Source: Undaria pinnatifida
Taxonomy: Eukaryota > Sar > Phaeophyceae > Laminariales > Alariaceae
Length of the DNA: 64,000 bases
NCBI GenBank assembly: GCA_012845835.1
Contig: JABAKD010000003.1
Location: 495,984 to 559,983, forward strand
Direction of reading: 5' to 3'
The notes under the pieces: model-generated
Told to the model about the DNA's origin: nothing
The model's database searches: none
The model's input: the letters and a program-made list of their open reading frames with translations, nothing else
Part shown: one piece after another, positions 2,801-63,192 of the stretch
How positions within the stretch are numbered: position 1 is the first letter of the stretch
Layout: each line of letters opens with the position of its first letter
Made by a program: the position numbers and the translations under genes

Positions 2801-3820
2801 CCAACCTGACCCGCGAGAAGCGATCCGTCCCGTGAAAATCGTTATTTTTTTCTTCCATTGGGACGCAGTTATATAGAGCCAGATTTCAGGGAAATGAGCT
2901 ATTTCAATAATGTGAAAACATCGTACAATCAACGGCAAGTTGTGCCGCTCTAGTTGAGGGGGGCACGGGTATGCGAAAGGTGCACGGTATGAACGGAAGA
3001 GAGCATCACTGCTGTGTCTCCTTTTGATGCGCCACGAGCGGTTTTTGGTTCAGCCCTCGCCGCGAACGTGTTCACCGTGTTTTTTTTTTATATATCCGGT
3101 TGGGACTTCAATGAAAAAAATAAGAACGAAAACAGGTGGAAGTTGTGCAGCATCGGCCAACACGCTTCTTGACCGTTTGGGGACTTGATGATATCTTGAT
3201 TATAGTGTAGCGACCGAAAAAAGGACGGTTGCGATATTGCAAGTGTCTACGAGTAGCGTGAGCGCGTGGCAAAAGCAGTACAAGTAGGATCATGCTTCCT
3301 GATTTTATTTTATCATTTACTTATTTCGGACACCGATTTCATTTTTCGCCACCCGGAGCAGTGGCCGATCGATGCCGTAATCGTTAATTTTCATCGCCAA
3401 TTTTTCCGTCTGAAGTTCCGAAGGGGTGAACTTGCTTGGTATGTTTTCGCCACATTTTTGTATTTTGTCTTCTTAGCCCCTTTCTTAGCTCCTTGTGGGG
3501 GAAACGTGAGAGTGGACCGAAATATTGGGTGGCTATCTCACACCTTCTTGGCCGAAATTTATAGGGTTCGGCCAAAGAAGGCCGACAAGTCCACGGCGTT
3601 GACTAAACCGAAGGGGCGTCAGTCTGCGTTTTGCAGATGGACAAAAACTGGTACAAAAACGAAAGTGTATGGAGCTTGAGTTTTTTTACCCGGATCTCCA
3701 GGAGGATATAAAAACAAAAAACAAAAAACAAAACAAAATACCATATAATATGACTGAATAACGTGACGATTACAGCGTCGATCACAGGACGTGTAACCCT
3801 TAGTAGTCGGACAGATCACC
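2801..3820. other. No feature recognised
   Basis: About 1 kb of mixed sequence. The ORF at 3266-3679 on the plus strand lacks protein-like features and has no splice context I can support. The AT-rich stretch around 3700-3760 is simple sequence. Confidence 0.4.
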
Positions 3821-9358: not shown

Positions 9359-9657
9359 CCGGTCGCCCCGGTAGCGTATCAGGTTATCCTCGAGCCTGGT
9401 ATAGGTCAGTTTCGTGAGTTCGAGCCCCGTCGAGTGCATACTCGCATAAATCCGTTGGGACTTTTTCTTGTGCACAAATTGACTTGCGGAAAGCGCGAGA
9501 GCGTGAGTTAGCAACACTACATCGACGAGCAGTGGGATTGCTGAACCCTATGCGTGATAAAAAATTGAAGGCAAGAACCGGGGGGAAGAAGGGACGACAC
9601 CTGTGACCACGGCTTGTCCAGAAGCTGGAAAGTAAAAGTGTGAGAAGAAAAAAGAAA
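9359..9657 (+). mobile_element. Family A tRNA-headed SINE, full copy
   Basis: The head runs from CCGGTCGCC through an A-box-like TAGCGTATCAGG and a B-box-like GAGTTCGAGCC, which is a tRNA-like organisation. The body has TTGTGCACAAATTGACTTGC and GGGATTGCTGAACC, then a 3' part with CACCTGTGACCACGG and an A-rich end. Near full-length copies lie at 61628-61932 and 35627-36155 (minus), with others at 16044 and 40139. The founding tRNA cannot be assigned because the anticodon arm is degenerate. Confidence 0.75.
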
Positions 9658-33224: not shown

Positions 33225-33560
33225 TTGTATTTTTTTTTTTTTTTTTTTTTTTATCCTCCGGCGGATGGGGAAAAATAAAGCTTTAGCTCACCACACTTCC
33301 GCGTATTTTCATACGCGGAAGTGTGTCGATTTAACTCAGTTGCTTTCGCAGCCCAACGCTAGCTGGCGCACCCTTCGAGTCCCATTGTAGGTATAGCGTA
33401 AGCTGTCCCTATCATTGGTCCTTGTTGCAACCCCGGCAGCGCAAGCTGCCGTTGTATACGGGTGCGTGTGTATGTCGACCCGGCCTGTCCCCTGAGGGTC
33501 AGGTTCGGTGGAGATAGCCACCCGGAATGTCATCTTTCCGGGTAGTGTGGGACTTGCGCA
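33225..33560 (-). mobile_element. Family D poly-A retroposon, longest copy
   Basis: A poly-T run at 33230-33252 precedes ATCCTCCGGCGGATGGGG and AAAAATAAAGCTTTAGCTCA; read on the minus strand the element ends in poly-A. It includes a perfect 15 bp hairpin at 33292-33325 (CACACTTCCGCGTAT with a TTTC loop). Other copies: 36310-36348 plus 38168-38380, 39615-39800, 45283-45416 and 52605-52745. Confidence 0.75.
33292..33325. repeat. Perfect hairpin inside family D
   Basis: CACACTTCCGCGTAT, a 4-base loop TTTC, and ATACGCGGAAGTGTG. Copies at 38182 and 39661 keep a similar but imperfect stem, so the fold seems to be part of the family. Confidence 0.8.
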
Positions 33561-35626: not shown

Positions 35627-36155
35627 TCACTTTGTTCTCACACTTCTACTTTTCAGCTTCTGGACAAGCCGTGGTCAGAGGTGTCGTCCCTTCTCCCCCC
35701 CGGTTCTTGCGTTCAATTTTTATCGCGCATAGGGTTCAGCAATCCCACTGCTTATCGATTTTTCATCGAGTGTGGCTAACTCACGCTCTCGCGCTTTCCG
35801 CACGTCAATTTGTGCACAAGAAGAAAGTCCCAACGAATTTTATATCAACTGAAGAACGTCAGCTGTGAGTACAACCGTTTGATTGGCTGAAACTCAACTT
35901 TTGCAAGCTGCGTGGTACATCTATGTTTCACTAATAAGCAGCAGTAGTAGTTGCACACAATTTACGGAAGGTCGTTCGCGCGTGTTATGTGTTTGATGCT
36001 CATGGAAGATATAGGTCGGTGAATCCCCTGGATGTTGTCAGGGTCAACAGGACGATTTTCCATAATTTATACGAGTATGCACTCGGCGGGGCTCGAACTC
36101 ACGAAACTGACCTATACCAGGCTCGAGGATAACCTGATACGCCACCGGGGCGACC
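35627..36155 (-). mobile_element. Family A SINE interrupted by family B
   Basis: 35627-35845 holds the family A body (CACTTCTACTTTTCAGCTTC to AAGAAAGTCCCAACGAA). 36066-36155 holds the missing tRNA-like head (ACGAGTATGCACTCGGCGGG, ACTCACGAAACTGACC, GATACGCCACCGGGGCGACC). The uninterrupted copy at 61628-61932 reads straight across this point. Confidence 0.75.
35846..36065 (-). mobile_element. Family B copy inserted within a family A SINE
   Basis: It contains ACGTCAGCTGTGAGT, GGCTGAAACTCAACTTTTGC, TAGGTCGGTGAATCCCC and GTCAGGGTCAACAGG. The flanks CGAATTTTAT and ATAATTTAT are similar and could be a degraded target duplication. Its position inside a SINE shows that family B is itself mobile. Confidence 0.65.
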
Positions 36156-36300
36156 GGATGCCCCTATGATACGATGGCGTGGGAGTAGGAGCTTTGCCGC
36201 ATGGTCTAAATCACCTGCGCATTGTTTCTGACGACAGCAGTAGTAGCGGTGCCAATGCCGTCATCGTCGCCCCCGAACCGAATAAAAAAACGTTTTTGGT
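36156..36300. other. No feature recognised
   Basis: Short unique stretch between SINE A and family D. Confidence 0.3.
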
Positions 36301-36348
36301 TTTTAGTTTTTGTTATCCTCCAGCGGAAATGAAAAAATGAAGCTTTAA
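36301..36348 (-). mobile_element. Family D retroposon, part 1 (split by palindrome)
   Basis: TGTTATCCTCCAGCGGAAAT and GAAAAAATGAAGCTT match 33240-33272. The remainder continues at 38168 beyond the palindromic element. Confidence 0.75.
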
Positions 36349-38167
36349 GGCTATTTCTTACGTTCGGATTCGTCAGTCGAAAACGGCCTTTTTCGACTGG
36401 AGCCCAAATCGGGCTTTCTTACACAGTCGAAAAAGGACTTTTTTTACTCACCTTTTTTCGACTGAGTTTTCCGCCAGTCGAAAAACTCAGTCGAAAAAGT
36501 TTTCCACGTGTTTTGTGAACCCATCGCATTGCTCATCGCACTGCAAAGCACATCCACACACCCATACCAAGTACCACATAGCAGTATTACACCACAGCGC
36601 CAACTCTGGCTTGGCCAGCACTGCTGTTGCTTCTTCGCCACAAGTCGGCGTGGCGCATTCCTAGCTCCGCTCGCCAGCAGCGTGTATCACACGACGACAG
36701 CTGCGCGCGGTATCGATGCCACTTTGCGAACAACGGCTAAGCCTGCTGTAGCTATGGCGGCTCTCGGCTGAGTACAACGCCAAAAACGTAGCTTTCGCGA
36801 CTTGCGGCTGAGTCCAACGCCACCAACCCGCTCAGCGCCATTAACCCGCTTGGACGAGGATTCGTCGCGCGCGAAGCACACGTTGCTCGCGGTGAACGCG
36901 CGAAGCACAGAGCTGCCAACCGATTTTCGACCGCCATACAGCAGTACAGCAGTATCCTTTTACACCAACCGCCTCTAGGAAGAGCACAAAAACTATAAAA
37001 GCGACTCGACTGACGATAAGAAGAAGGACCAGAAGAATCCAGTCGAAAAAAAGTCCAGTCGAACAGGGCGGTTTTCGACTGACGGAATCCGACTGTGAAA
37101 GAAATGGCTCGAAAAAAAGTCCAGTCGAACAGGGCGGTTTTCAATTGACGGAATCCGACTGAGTAAAAAATGCGACTGACGATGAGAAGAAGGACCAGAA
37201 GGATCCATCGAATTAAAGTCCAGTCGAACAGGGCGGTTTTCGACTGTTGGACTGGACTTTTTTTCGGCTGCATTTCTTACACAGCTGGATCCCGTCAGTC
37301 GAAAACCGCCCTGTTCGACTGGACTTTTTTTCGACTACAATTTTCGTACACAGTTGGATTCCGTCAGTCGAAACCACCCTGTTCGACTGGACTTTTTTTC
37401 GTTTGCATTTCTTACACAGTCGGATTCCGTCAGTCGAAAACCACCCTGTTCTACTGGACTTTTTTTCGACTGGATTCTTCTGGTCCTTCTTCTTATCGTC
37501 AGTCGAGTCGATTTTATAGTTTTTGTGCTCTTCCTGGAGGCGGTCGGTGTGTGGGGGAGTACTGCTGTATGGCAGTCTAAAATCGGTTGGCATCTTTGTC
37601 TTCCGGCGTTCTCCGCGAGCAACGCGTGCTTCGCGCGCGACGAACCCTCGCTCAAGCGGGTTGATGTCGTTGGGTTTAGCCGAAAACTGCCAAAGCTACG
37701 CTCGTGGCGTTGCACTCAGCCGAGAGCTGCAAAGCTACATACACCAGGCGTAGCCGTTGTTGGCAAAATGGCATCGATACCGCGGGCTGCTGCCGTCGTG
37801 TGATACACGCTGCTGGCAGGAAGATCGGAGCTAGGAGTGCGTCACGCTGGCTTGCGGCGGGAAGCAACAGCAGTGAAAGCCAAGCCAGCTTCGGCGCTGT
37901 TGTATGACACTGCTGTGTGGTACCTGGTATGGGTGTGTAGGCGTGTGGGTGTGTGTTTGGTGGTGGGACGAGCGATGCGATGGGCTAAGAAAAACACGTG
38001 TAGTACATTTTCGACTGGGTTTTTCGACAGGATCGGCCAGTCGGAAAACTCAACTCGAAACAAGTTGAGTCGAAAAAGCTCTTTTGGACTGTGTAAGAAA
38101 GCCCAATTTGGGCTTCAGCCGAAACGGCCGTTTTCGACGGACAAACCCGACTGTGTAAGAAATGGCC
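36349..38167. mobile_element. 1.8 kb foldback (palindromic) DNA element
   Basis: The whole element is an inverted repeat with arms of about 900 bp meeting near 37258. The ends are GGCTATTTCTTAC and the complement of GGCCATTTCTTACACAGTCG. Each arm holds, from outside in, AGTCGAAAA-rich blocks, a common 450 bp segment (words such as TCGTCGCGCGCGAAGCAC and GTGTATCACACGACG), and an inner array of about 85 bp units built on AAAAAGTCCAGTCGAACAGG. It splits a family D copy. The flanking triplets TAA and CAA, with GGCC-type ends, suggest PIF/Harbinger, but no transposase is present. The open frames within it are mirrored in both arms and are not taken as genes. Confidence 0.8.
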
Positions 38168-38380
38168 CAAGCTCACCACACTTTCACGTATTTTCATACA
38201 CGTCGTGTGTCAACTTAACTCATTGGTCTTCGCAATCCAGCTGGTTTTCTGACATGTCCTTCAGTTCCCGTGAAAGGGATAGCGCAAGCTGCCGTTGTAT
38301 ACAGATGCGTGAGTATGCCGACCCGACCTGCACCCGGGGGGGCAGATGCGATGGAGCTAGCCACCCGGAACGTCGTCATT
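38168..38380 (-). mobile_element. Family D retroposon, part 2
   Basis: AGCTCACCACACTTTCACGT, GCGCAAGCTGCCGTTGTATA, CCCGACCTGCACC and GCCACCCGGAACGTC continue the family D sequence interrupted at 36348; compare 33280-33545. Confidence 0.75.
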
Positions 38381-38619
38381 TCGAACCCTAAGAATTAAGC
38401 AAGCAAACACTCAGCAACAAAGCAGGTGACACCACGCAGCCGGCGTCGGGGTAGCACTCTAACTTGGCTCCGAACGCAAAATCTAGAGGGTTAGGAGCTT
38501 TGCTGCCTGGTCTGTCCTCCACTTACTGTAAGTTCGACGGCGGTGTCCATGCCGACATCATCGCCTCAGTATCCCTCAAGGGTAGGAAAACAGAAAAGGC
38601 AAAAAAGACCGGTGCTACG
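38381..38619. other. No feature recognised
   Basis: Unique sequence with no supportable gene. Confidence 0.3.
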
Positions 38620-39535: not shown

Positions 39536-39614
39536 GCAAATGGTACAGTGGTGCGGCCAACGCCCTGTACGAATATGTGGCCGCTCCGTTCCACCGACCT
39601 CCGAGAGTATTTTT

Positions 39615-60425: not shown

Positions 60426-63192
60426 TTATTTACGGGGTTTCGTAATGATGGTGGCGTCTCCCCCGATAATCGTTTGGCAAGCCAGCCGCCTGGATTCCGG
60501 ACGGCCCTGAGCGTCCATTCCATTCCATTCCATCCCATGCCACGCGACGCCGTGTCGCGAAGCAAAACGTACGACACCAGCGCCATGAGGGGACAAGACG
60601 TCAGCGCCGAGCGCACACAAAGAACGCGAAGAGGGGGGAAGGAGGCACAGAGGCGTGCAGGGAAAGGGGAGAGAGAAGTGTATGTTTGGTTTGCTCGTGT
60701 GTTGCAGTGGCTCCAAAAGGGTTTCACAATCGACTGGGTGGCTGGGGTAAGGGACAGGGGTCGCTAAAACTTTGAGTTCTCCAACACCTAAGACGCCATG
60801 TTTTTCAATTTTCTGGCTTTACCCCGACTTGATGTAGGGTTTTCGTACAAATAAGAAAAACATACTGGTATATGAATGCGTATTTCCTACTAGGTTTCAA
60901 GAGTATCTCTCCCCGCCTCTCTCGTTTCCCAGGGCACAGCTTGGGCATTGATATGTATATTGCGTACAACATAACTTAGAATGCAAAAAACACTTTTAAC
61001 GTTTTACATTTTTTTTTTGGGGGGTACTCTCGGTTGGCCTATGAGTACCTTTAGTTTTCCGGCTTCCCAGTCGCTTCTCGGGTCCCACCCTTCCGCTTCC
61101 TCGACCTGCACGGCGCACGTGCCGCACTGGCCGCCCCCATTGCAGTTCGTCATCTGGTGGTCCGCGCGATGAACGGCGAGTCCGGGTGGGAAGGGTTGGG
61201 ACGGGGCGAGGGTTGCTACGGAACACCATAAGAAAAAAAGCAAGGGGGGGTGTAGGGTGTGGGGTGCCATTGGCTGCACACCCATAATCGTAATGGGGTG
61301 TACTCGTTTGTTGCTTGCCTTCGTCGTTTTACCATTGACCACGCATCCCTTTCGAGACGGAGCACCGTTCCTACTCCTAATAGAGACACCTCCAACGTTT
61401 GGGCGCTCACTACGTAGGTTTCTTCCACATCTCACATAAACAATTTTGGTTTATCTCAAATATCGTTACAACTTTGGCCGTTTATGGCCACCATATGTCC
61501 CTTAGGATAGCGACCGTTTTCTCGCTACTATCTATGTACCAAAAACTTCTTCGTGTCATGGGGGGGAGGGGGAGGGGGAGGGTTGCTGTTGGAAATCGTC
61601 AAGTAAGACACCTATAGATAGATATTTTCCTCTTTTTTCGCACACTTCTACTTTCCAGCTTCTGGATAAGCCGTGGTCACAGATGTCGTCCCTTCTCCCC
61701 CCAGTTCTTGCCTTCAATTTTTATAGCGCATAGAGTTCAGCAATCCCACTGCTCGTCGATATCATCGAGTGCTGCTAACTCACGCTCTCGTGTTTTCCGC
61801 AAGTCAATTTGTGCGCAAGAAAAAGTCCCCAAGAATATATACGAGTATGCACTCGGGGGGATTCGAACTCACGAAACAGACTTACACCAGGCTCGAGGAT
61901 AACCTGATACGCCACCGGGACGACCGGCTGATATACACCATTATCACAACACCCTGCACACACCACCCACCTTTGTCAAAGTCGGACACCTCAACCTTCC
62001 CGGCCAGCACCGCCTTTCGAAGCTTATCTCCCGACAAACATAGAAAACCGTTCTAATGTATAGAAAACCTTCCCATAAGAGCAATATACAAAACATACAC
62101 CATGACACCATCCTCGAAGCACATCACACACCACGCACCGCACACATTCCCCATCATTTCGTACACCTCCACCTTTCCGGCGAGCAGCGCCTTCCGAAAG
62201 CTACCCCCCATCTAACACATGTTTACCAGTAGAAAAAAATCCTACTACACAGCAGTCGTCATCCCACGCTAGGTAGGGGTGAAGCAAATTCTAAGATTTT
62301 TCTGAGCTCCTAGCATGAGGATATCTGTCAAAATCTCACCTGATACACGACTTCGAAGGCGTTCGTTGGTGCAGCAACCCGGCCAACATTTATGTGCGCT
62401 AGTCTTGAAAATAGATATTCTCGTGAAAATATCATGCTAACCGATAATTCCACACTTGAGTAGGCCAATCGGTAAGAGGTAAGAAACGCCTGGCCCAAAA
62501 AGTGGAACTCCTACCGTGACATGACTCATAGAACAACTTCCCATAAGACAAGTAGACACTAGCTAACACGCAAGTCACGGAACCATTCCGAAGGACGACG
62601 CAGAGAACGGGAAGGAGATCGATATCGGCAGCTTCAGAGATGCGGTTGTTGTTGACGCAGAGAAGGGGAAAGAGATCGATATCGGCAGCTTCAGAGATGC
62701 GGTTGTTGACGCAGAGAAGGGGAAGGAAATCGATATCGGCAGCTTCAGAGATGGGGTTGTTGACTTTGTAGCCGGCTGCGTGTCGGGGTTGCGCTGGGAT
62801 CGTACTTGGTCAGGCAACGTCTGTCTACAATGATGATTTGATGCCCGTTGAGCCATGCTACCGGCCTTGAACACACCACCCACCTTTCCTACCATGTCGT
62901 ACACCTCAAACTTCCCGGCTAGCAGCGCTTTCCGAAGGTTATCCCCCGTCTTCGCCTTCACCACCCCCAGCTCCTTCCCGTCCGCACTCATCACCCGAAC
63001 CTCACACGCCACCACCGGCGGCGGTGGCGGAGGCGGAGGCGGTGCCGGTGCCGGGACAGAGGGGTCACGGAAAACGAGGTCAATGGGGACCCCTGCAGGG
63101 GTGGCGACTAACGCATCCATGATGGCGTCGAACGTCGCGCCGGTTACGTCTTGGCCTCCGAGCTCTACCAAAAGCATGCTAGGGCCGACTTC
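60426..63192 (-). CDS. PDZ / [2Fe-2S] ferredoxin-like protein, three 3' exons
   Basis: Exon A 63192-62884 (after AAAAAACAG; donor AAG|GTGGGT), exon B 61153-61049 (after CCACCAG; donor AAG|GTACTC) and exon C 60506-60426 (after GCTCAG; stop TAA) join in phase 0 at both junctions, giving 164 residues. Exon A starts with the end of a PDZ-like fold (MLLVELGGQDVTGATFDAIM, then GVPIDLVFRD), a linker with nine prolines, and the first half of a plant-type ferredoxin fold (VRVMSADGKELG). Exon B brings TNCNGGGQCGTC, three of four iron-sulphur cysteines; exon C brings ESRRLACQTIIGG with the fourth. Such proteins carry a [2Fe-2S] cluster for electron transfer; the cysteine region and ending most resemble the ferredoxin-like chloroplast NDH-associated subunit PnsB3. 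Plastid location is inferred. 5' exons, including any transit peptide and PDZ start, lie beyond the window or are unrecognised. Confidence 0.8.
60507..61048 (-). other. Intron between exons B and C of the ferredoxin-like gene
   Basis: 542 bp, starting GTACTC and ending TCAG. It includes C-rich/G-rich simple sequence and no recognised dispersed repeat. Confidence 0.65.
61628..61932 (-). mobile_element. Family A tRNA-headed SINE, full copy in an intron
   Basis: On the minus strand: CCGGTCGTCCCGGTGGCG, A-box-like TGGCGTATCAGG, B-box GAGTTCGAATCC, then GACTTTTTCTTGCGCACAAA, GGGATTGCTGAACTC and CATCTGTGACCACGGCTTAT to an A/G-rich end. Same orientation as the host gene. Confidence 0.8.
61951..62035 (-). 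pseudogene. Degenerate duplicate of exon A 3' end (copy 1)
   Basis: The minus strand reads GATAAGCTTCGAAAGGCGGT... giving DKLRKAVLAGKVEVSDFDK, close to exon A's DNLRKALLAGKFEVYDMVGK, and keeps the GTGGGT donor. It has lost 2 bases before the donor, so it could not join exon B in frame. Confidence 0.65.
62124..62210 (-). pseudogene. Duplicate of exon A 3' end (copy 2), frame intact
   Basis: The minus strand after GTGTTAG gives MGGSFRKALLAGKVEVYEMM and GN before GTGTGC. It has no stop, keeps phase 0 and aligns with exon A over 20 residues. Either a decayed exon or an alternative exon of the ferredoxin-like gene. Confidence 0.6.
62251..62545 (+). repeat. Family K dispersed repeat, copy 3
   Basis: GTCATCCCACGCTAGGTAGG, TTTCTGAGCTCCTAGCATGA, ACACGACTTCGAAGGCGTTC, AAGAAACGCCTGGCCC. 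Lies antisense in the ferredoxin-like gene's intron. Confidence 0.7.
62597..62765. repeat. Three-unit minisatellite, about 55-60 bp
   Basis: GACGCAGAGAAGGGGAAGGA, GATCGATATCGGCAGCTTCA and GAGATGCGGTTGTTG repeat three times with few changes. It stays open on the minus strand as an extension of the exon A frame, but lies beyond the GTGGGT donor. Confidence 0.85.

Follow-up and report, generated by a model that had tools for sequence, protein, structure and literature searches.

How does a 1.8-kb inverted repeat with almost no spacer come to lie inside a retroposon of the brown alga Undaria pinnatifida, and does its size call for a special kind of transposable element? The repeat spans positions 36349-38167 of the window, by which we mean the whole 64-kb stretch of DNA that was analysed. 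The feature is real, and the original prediction, which took it for a giant palindromic foldback element, spotted and bounded it correctly. It is almost certainly a tail-to-tail inverted pair of non-autonomous PIF/Harbinger copies of ~0.8 kb each.

Comparison of 36349-38167 with its own reverse complement by self-BLAST gave an end-to-end alignment of 76.4% identity over 1,921 columns (204 of them gap columns), which confirms a near-spacerless inverted repeat along the whole 1.8 kb. A repeat search resolved it into a series of shorter inverted pairs; the longest one (36962-37106 and 37406-37550) is 96% identical. The predicted folding energy of the central 589 nt (36962-37550) is -433 kcal/mol, whereas 100 shuffles average -168 (z -41.9) and none of them did as well. 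The 64-kb window has no match in Rfam and no tRNA called by ARAGORN, and a Pfam search of 10 window ORFs returned a single weak match, below its cut-off; the two longer ORFs that overlap the palindrome are without a Pfam match.

The palindrome had also been said to split a family D retroposon and so to have well-defined borders, and alignment with an uninterrupted copy nearby bears this out, as follows:

33231..33540, uninterrupted retroposon copy with the empty site, by alignment to the split copy
36293..36348, left part of the interrupted retroposon (family D), matching about 33231-33285
38168..38383, right part of the interrupted retroposon, matching about 33286-33540

Shorter matches to the retroposon lie near 39610, 45297 and 52608. 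Genome searches covered 68 contigs (511.15 Mb), and in the search with 33239-33360, in which split copies are at a disadvantage, all 40 scored matches (57 candidates) cross the site without an insert. Some empty sites in the genome read GCTCAAGCTCACC, and CAA is therefore also a natural variant at this position. A second repeat family is present in the window: 9359-9451 and 61834-61930 are 91-97% identical to 36065-36157, which by eye resembles a tRNA-derived SINE on the minus strand, presumably with box A and box B motifs, and ARAGORN called no tRNA at the copies of this family.

The genome-wide search with one arm proposed in the original prediction yielded 133 matches (40 scored of 2,443 candidates), and the long ones mostly end near arm position 760. 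Thirty of the 39 loci fetched gave 34 copies with both ends recognisable, while those that were cut, nested or of uncertain start were left out (L009, L026, L028, L029, L032, L033, L036, L040 and L041). Together with the two window arms these copies form an alignment of 36, the consensus of which is 798 bp long, or 799 bp with the last base. The element begins and ends in GGCC-led terminal inverted repeats of 53-54 bp that start GGCCATTTCTTA (GGCCATTTCTTAYRCAGTCGG), and over 54 columns the consensus ends show 92.6% complementarity. Allowing one mismatch at most, the first 21 bp match the genome 2,652 times (1,347 + 1,305) against 0 + 0 for the reversed control, and the copy number of the element is therefore above 1,300. 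Among the matches listed for contig C1, with 62 exact ends, 15 pairs are in facing orientation 591-889 bp apart, the other ends being single. A 3.07-kb unit on this contig (C1:4969116-4972181) looked autonomous by its end spacing and was rejected, being another pile of copies with an insert.

Target-site duplications were counted in 31 copies. Five of the 36 were set aside: both window arms, because their inner ends are not true ones, and L011, the first copy of L012 and L024, whose ends are missing or uncertain. All 31 are single arms of 720-833 bp. Their 3-bp flanks, mostly TTA or TAA, agree exactly in 16, with one mismatch in 13 and with two mismatches in 2, compared with 0-2 of 31 at eight shifted offsets; TTA is so frequent that a left flank and a right flank taken from different copies match in 215 of 930 pairings. 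No target motif extending beyond TWA was evident in 29 sites. The genome thus supplies both the further copies and the flanking 3-bp duplications that had been looked for. It also holds one-arm copies between unrelated flanks, the outcome named beforehand as telling against a giant palindromic foldback element, and that description gives way to 31 single-arm copies, 29 of them with duplications exact or one letter off. The family has the features of a MITE in being non-coding, high in copy number and homogeneous in length (720-833 bp), and 0.8 kb is long for a MITE.

Read against the consensus, the palindrome and its flanks are made up of the following parts, in which L062 is a transposase-bearing locus considered below:

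36346..36348, left target-site duplication TAA, from the junction sequence; a TWA duplication is usual for the family
36349..37108, plus strand, monomer A, a copy of the 0.8-kb element (consensus 1-798), 91.2% identical to the consensus
36349..36401, plus strand, outer left terminal inverted repeat, starting GGCTATTTCTTACGTTCGG, from self-alignment and consensus
36631..37077, plus strand, decayed remnant similar to the L062 upstream frame (tblastn, 33.8% amino-acid identity to residues 11-159)
37109..37172, plus strand, second tail copy (consensus 733-796, 89%), by consensus comparison, in a 66-bp tandem array
37173..37246, plus strand, third tail copy, partial (consensus 697-771, 91%), by consensus comparison
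37247..37270, palindrome centre, a partial tail copy on the minus strand, within the inverted pair 37036-37066 / 37244-37274
37271..37336, minus strand, tail copy (consensus 796-731, 91%), by consensus comparison, in a 67-bp tandem array
37342..37409, minus strand, tail copy (consensus 794-726, 86%), by consensus comparison
37406..38167, minus strand, monomer B, inverted (consensus 796-1), 91.0% identical to the consensus and 85.3% to monomer A
38115..38167, minus strand, outer right terminal inverted repeat, 53 bp by consensus, from self-alignment and consensus
38168..38170, right target-site duplication CAA, differing from the left one at one position, from the junction sequence

Both outer ends of the palindrome are element 5' ends, and both inner ends are tails without a target duplication. 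The centre consists of element tail copies in both orientations, lying between monomers A and B; their tandem unit measures 66-67 bp rather than the 85 bp first given. Since the palindrome is two 0.8-kb copies placed tail to tail, its size needs no special element. Another element in the genome is followed by tandem tail copies with a unit of about 80 bp in direct orientation (L044:1577-1733), which may be compared with the 66-bp array of the window.

The two arms had been described as differing by scattered substitutions; they do, and by indels too. The 85.3% identity between A and B is counted where both monomers have a base, and over 730 aligned sites monomer A has 53 private differences and monomer B 54 (107 in total), indels besides. 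They also have in common 12 non-consensus states over these 730 sites, of which 3 occur in no other copy, 2 of those 3 being in the tail. In a tree of the copies the end branches of A and B are 0.079 compared with a median of 0.048, and the pair is old. The arms do not group in this tree, in which a joint clade is nevertheless not rejected (p-AU 0.125, or 0.195 with more rows). On this evidence A and B may derive from two different copies or from one.

To which superfamily does the element belong? The assignment to PIF/Harbinger was upheld by the 3-bp TWA duplications, the GGCC-led end repeats and a Plant_tran/DDE_Tnp_4 stretch beside the same 5' end. Harbinger-type transposases are numerous in the genome, in which PF13359 has 138 matches (150 of 154 candidates scored), and two element ends among the matches listed flank one of them, in the stretch called L062, with these parts:

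L062:2225-2698, minus strand, transposase piece (PF04827, E 7.1e-12; PF13359, E 3.2e-8)
L062:2884-3309 and 3334-3627, minus strand, transposase pieces, weak matches (E about 1e-3) below the cut-offs
L062:4864-5751, minus strand, upstream frame, without a Pfam match at 0.1

An element 5' end lies at L062:5726 on the same strand and starts TAA|GGCCATTTCTTATGCAGTCGG; it is nearly identical to the consensus over ~195 bp (1-195) and 74% identical over 1-489. In L064 and L065 the transposases are likewise preceded by relatives of the upstream frame, and for this reason we take it to be probably part of the transposase gene. Tblastn also picked up traces of the frame in the window arm and in at least about 40 of the element loci fetched. 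Two of the L062 transposase pieces are separated by a stop, and the far end of this transposase-bearing element was looked for and not found. There was no second close copy of the transposase piece among 16 matches of 18 candidates, the next being 58% identical, and L062:2225-5726 (minus strand) is apparently the lone close copy of its transposase lineage against more than 1,000 non-autonomous copies. The 0.8-kb element itself contains no DDE transposase of Harbinger type, the arm having a decayed coding remnant only, and is therefore non-autonomous. Its matching 5' end and the traces of the upstream frame suggest that it is most likely an internal-deletion derivative of the L062 Harbinger lineage. 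Three other loci were considered as partners and set aside: L063-L065 hold related Harbingers with 53-64% amino-acid identity and no match to the element consensus. One of these, L063:897-2552, has many 29-bp repeats on both strands ahead of its transposase gene.

If the palindrome is a pair of copies, other pairs in the genome may tell how such structures form. The whole centre of the palindrome was found nowhere else among the 40 candidates scored out of 1,820, in a search that skipped common words and was not exhaustive, and we did not find the same palindrome at several unrelated sites, as an amplifying palindromic element would have it. A search with the junction of L053 (40 scored of 2,016 candidates) led to 12 loci that extend over both halves, and each of these was read. 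Tails face each other in 8 of the 12, namely L048, L051, L053, L055 and L070, and L071, L073 and L074, in which the partner is a short stub; L068, L069 and L072 are head to tail, and L046 has an inverted copy inserted into another near position 120 of the consensus, flanked by TCA on either side. The tail-facing junctions differ among loci, which points to repeated and independent formation of inverted pairs, and among those that can be read self-insertion would be commoner than other origins. L051 is a self-insertion into the TTA/TAA of the partner's end repeat and reads GTGTAA|GGCC...GGCC|TAAGAAATGGCC. The reading is AAATGGCC|TTA(T/C)ACAGTCGG both in L070, whose copies lie tail to tail, and in L046, whose copies lie head to tail, and in the self-insertion of L070 most of the end remnant is gone. 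The junction of L073 reads TAA|GGCC and is probably a self-insertion as well, and L025 lies within another element copy. L048 is ambiguous, with CAA/TAA outside and GTATAA|GCCATTT inside, and L055 lacks its left end. The pair in L053 is tail to tail as in the window, with TTA/TTA at the outer ends, both inner tails cut, a short filler and an unrelated insert in one copy, and looks like the sole repair-like product among the other inverted pairs with a readable origin. Two copies can also be fused head to tail: L068:465-2016 is such a pair in one perfect TTA/TTA with a single GGCC common to both, and L067:429-1995 is a dimer with one GGCC common to both at the joint. A pattern for this shared-GGCC fusion has 5 matches at 3 places and misses variants such as L068.

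The retroposon position that holds the palindrome (33285 / 36348) is also occupied elsewhere. L070 holds a pair of these elements there, and L076 a single copy beside the right half of the retroposon; the insert in L075 is another kind of element with GGCC ends. On the tree, a common origin with the window insertion is rejected for the L076 copy with both arms and for the L070 copy with arm B. The p-AU values for arm B as a sister are 5e-5 with the L070 copy and 1e-4 with the L076 copy, and grouping all three together gives 4e-4. L070 and L076 have flanks in common beyond the retroposon (by eye), and their insertions may be one event (p-AU 0.457). On the tree evidence, the 0.8-kb family appears to have hit this site at least twice independently, and another GGCC-ended element once. 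A pattern spanning the junction occurs at 13 places in the genome with 0-1 mismatch, among which the window, L070, L075 and L076 were read; since L075 holds a different element, not all 13 belong to the 0.8-kb family. Among the matches listed, many with 3 mismatches look like empty sites.

What, then, placed two copies tail to tail in the window? Our preferred origin, to which we give an even chance with self-insertion as a close rival, is template switching. One element copy would have sat in the retroposon between TWA duplications, and during repair of an excision gap, or stalled copying of the same region, synthesis may have switched between the similar end repeats. The switching would have added an inverted second copy and, between it and the first, the additional 66-bp tails, everything lying inside one target duplication, and the product is probably a dead end rather than an amplifying foldback family. 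The duplications fit, with none at the inner ends and one at the outer ends with one mismatch, and we cite L053 for the same topology and L068 as a related case, head to tail in one TTA/TTA. Against the repair route stand L046, L051, L070 and probably L073, which are self-insertions among the readable inverted pairs. For the window, a second copy inserted into the TTA/TAA of the first copy's end repeat, with later loss of the remnant and addition of tails by slippage, is the chief rival, though less likely than not. Self-insertion is known in the family (L051, L070, L046 and L025), the remnant in L070 has mostly gone, and the exact pattern CTGYRTAAGGCCATTTCTTAYRCAG occurs at 15 places where we estimate perhaps 4 from base composition; however, the outer ends in the window adjoin the retroposon directly without a TAAGAAATGGCC remnant, and TWA|GGCC is absent from both inner junctions.

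Two independent insertions next to each other at a retroposon hot site would draw on the filling of the same position by the L070 and L076 copies, which are not sisters of arm B, and by the L075 element, but they should have left a TWA duplication between the inner ends, where there are tail copies instead, and we regard this origin as improbable. The size, the symmetry and the target duplication at the outer ends led to the view of a distinct giant foldback transposon, which is now very unlikely, given that single-arm copies are the usual form and that the junction is unique among the scored candidates. Palindromes are a recognised artefact of single-molecule reads, and a hairpin read or false join could in principle have produced this one. 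A false join of a folded molecule would give near-identical arms, whereas these differ at 107 aligned sites besides indels, and the borders coincide with a target duplication in a known empty site; an assembly artefact is accordingly the least probable of these explanations. Taken as a whole, an inverted pair of Harbinger copies, perhaps formed by template switching, is likely to be the best explanation. Points that count against it are the mismatch in the window duplication, the far end of L062 that was not found, the stop between two L062 pieces, the lack of a Pfam match in the upstream frame, the arms that do not group in the tree and the self-insertions among the other inverted pairs.

Several known systems resemble the Undaria element in part. 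In Medicago truncatula (PMC2213677), the PIF/Harbinger subfamily MtPH-A6-4 has 60-bp subterminal repeats in opposite orientation, for which the authors propose abortive gap repair, and it resembles the window element in being PIF/Harbinger with non-autonomous deletion derivatives. In Undaria, unlike MtPH-A6-4, the terminal tail itself serves as the 66-bp unit and the two copies that stand face to face are almost complete; the end repeats are different and the host is a brown alga. The same source gives end repeats of 14-25 bp for autonomous PIF/Harbinger elements, compared with 53 bp in Undaria. Tourist-like PIF/Harbinger MITEs likewise have TWA duplications, terminal inverted repeats, high copy number and no coding capacity, but the Undaria element is longer (about 0.8 kb) and retains a recognisable decayed coding remnant. 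Galileo of Drosophila (PMC3573991) also has long, internally repetitive inverted ends, two-TIR structures and tandem expansion in its ends. It is, however, a P-element relative with 7-bp duplications; the Undaria element has 3-bp TWA duplications and a Harbinger transposase relative, and so lacks both the duplications of 7 bp or longer and the P-type transposase of the Foldback/Galileo group. Self-insertion has been raised (PMC10288884) as a possible cost of longer PIF/Pong/Harbinger elements. Among the papers listed on Harbinger in brown algae, none is by its title on the present 0.8-kb family, which is a weak negative.

The apparent oddity of a giant foldback without a transposase thus dissolves into a known kind of process, here in a brown alga, and the outcome is fairly ordinary in showing such elements piling onto themselves. 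We see only a slim chance that the recurrent tail-to-tail pairs, the window one among them, when transcribed yield long hairpin RNAs from which small RNAs silence every copy and so make the family self-limiting. The retroposon site that has been hit more than once could help to define target preference, and the single copies, self-insertions, head-to-tail pairs and tail-to-tail pairs of this family form a readable series for sorting out the routes to composite transposons.
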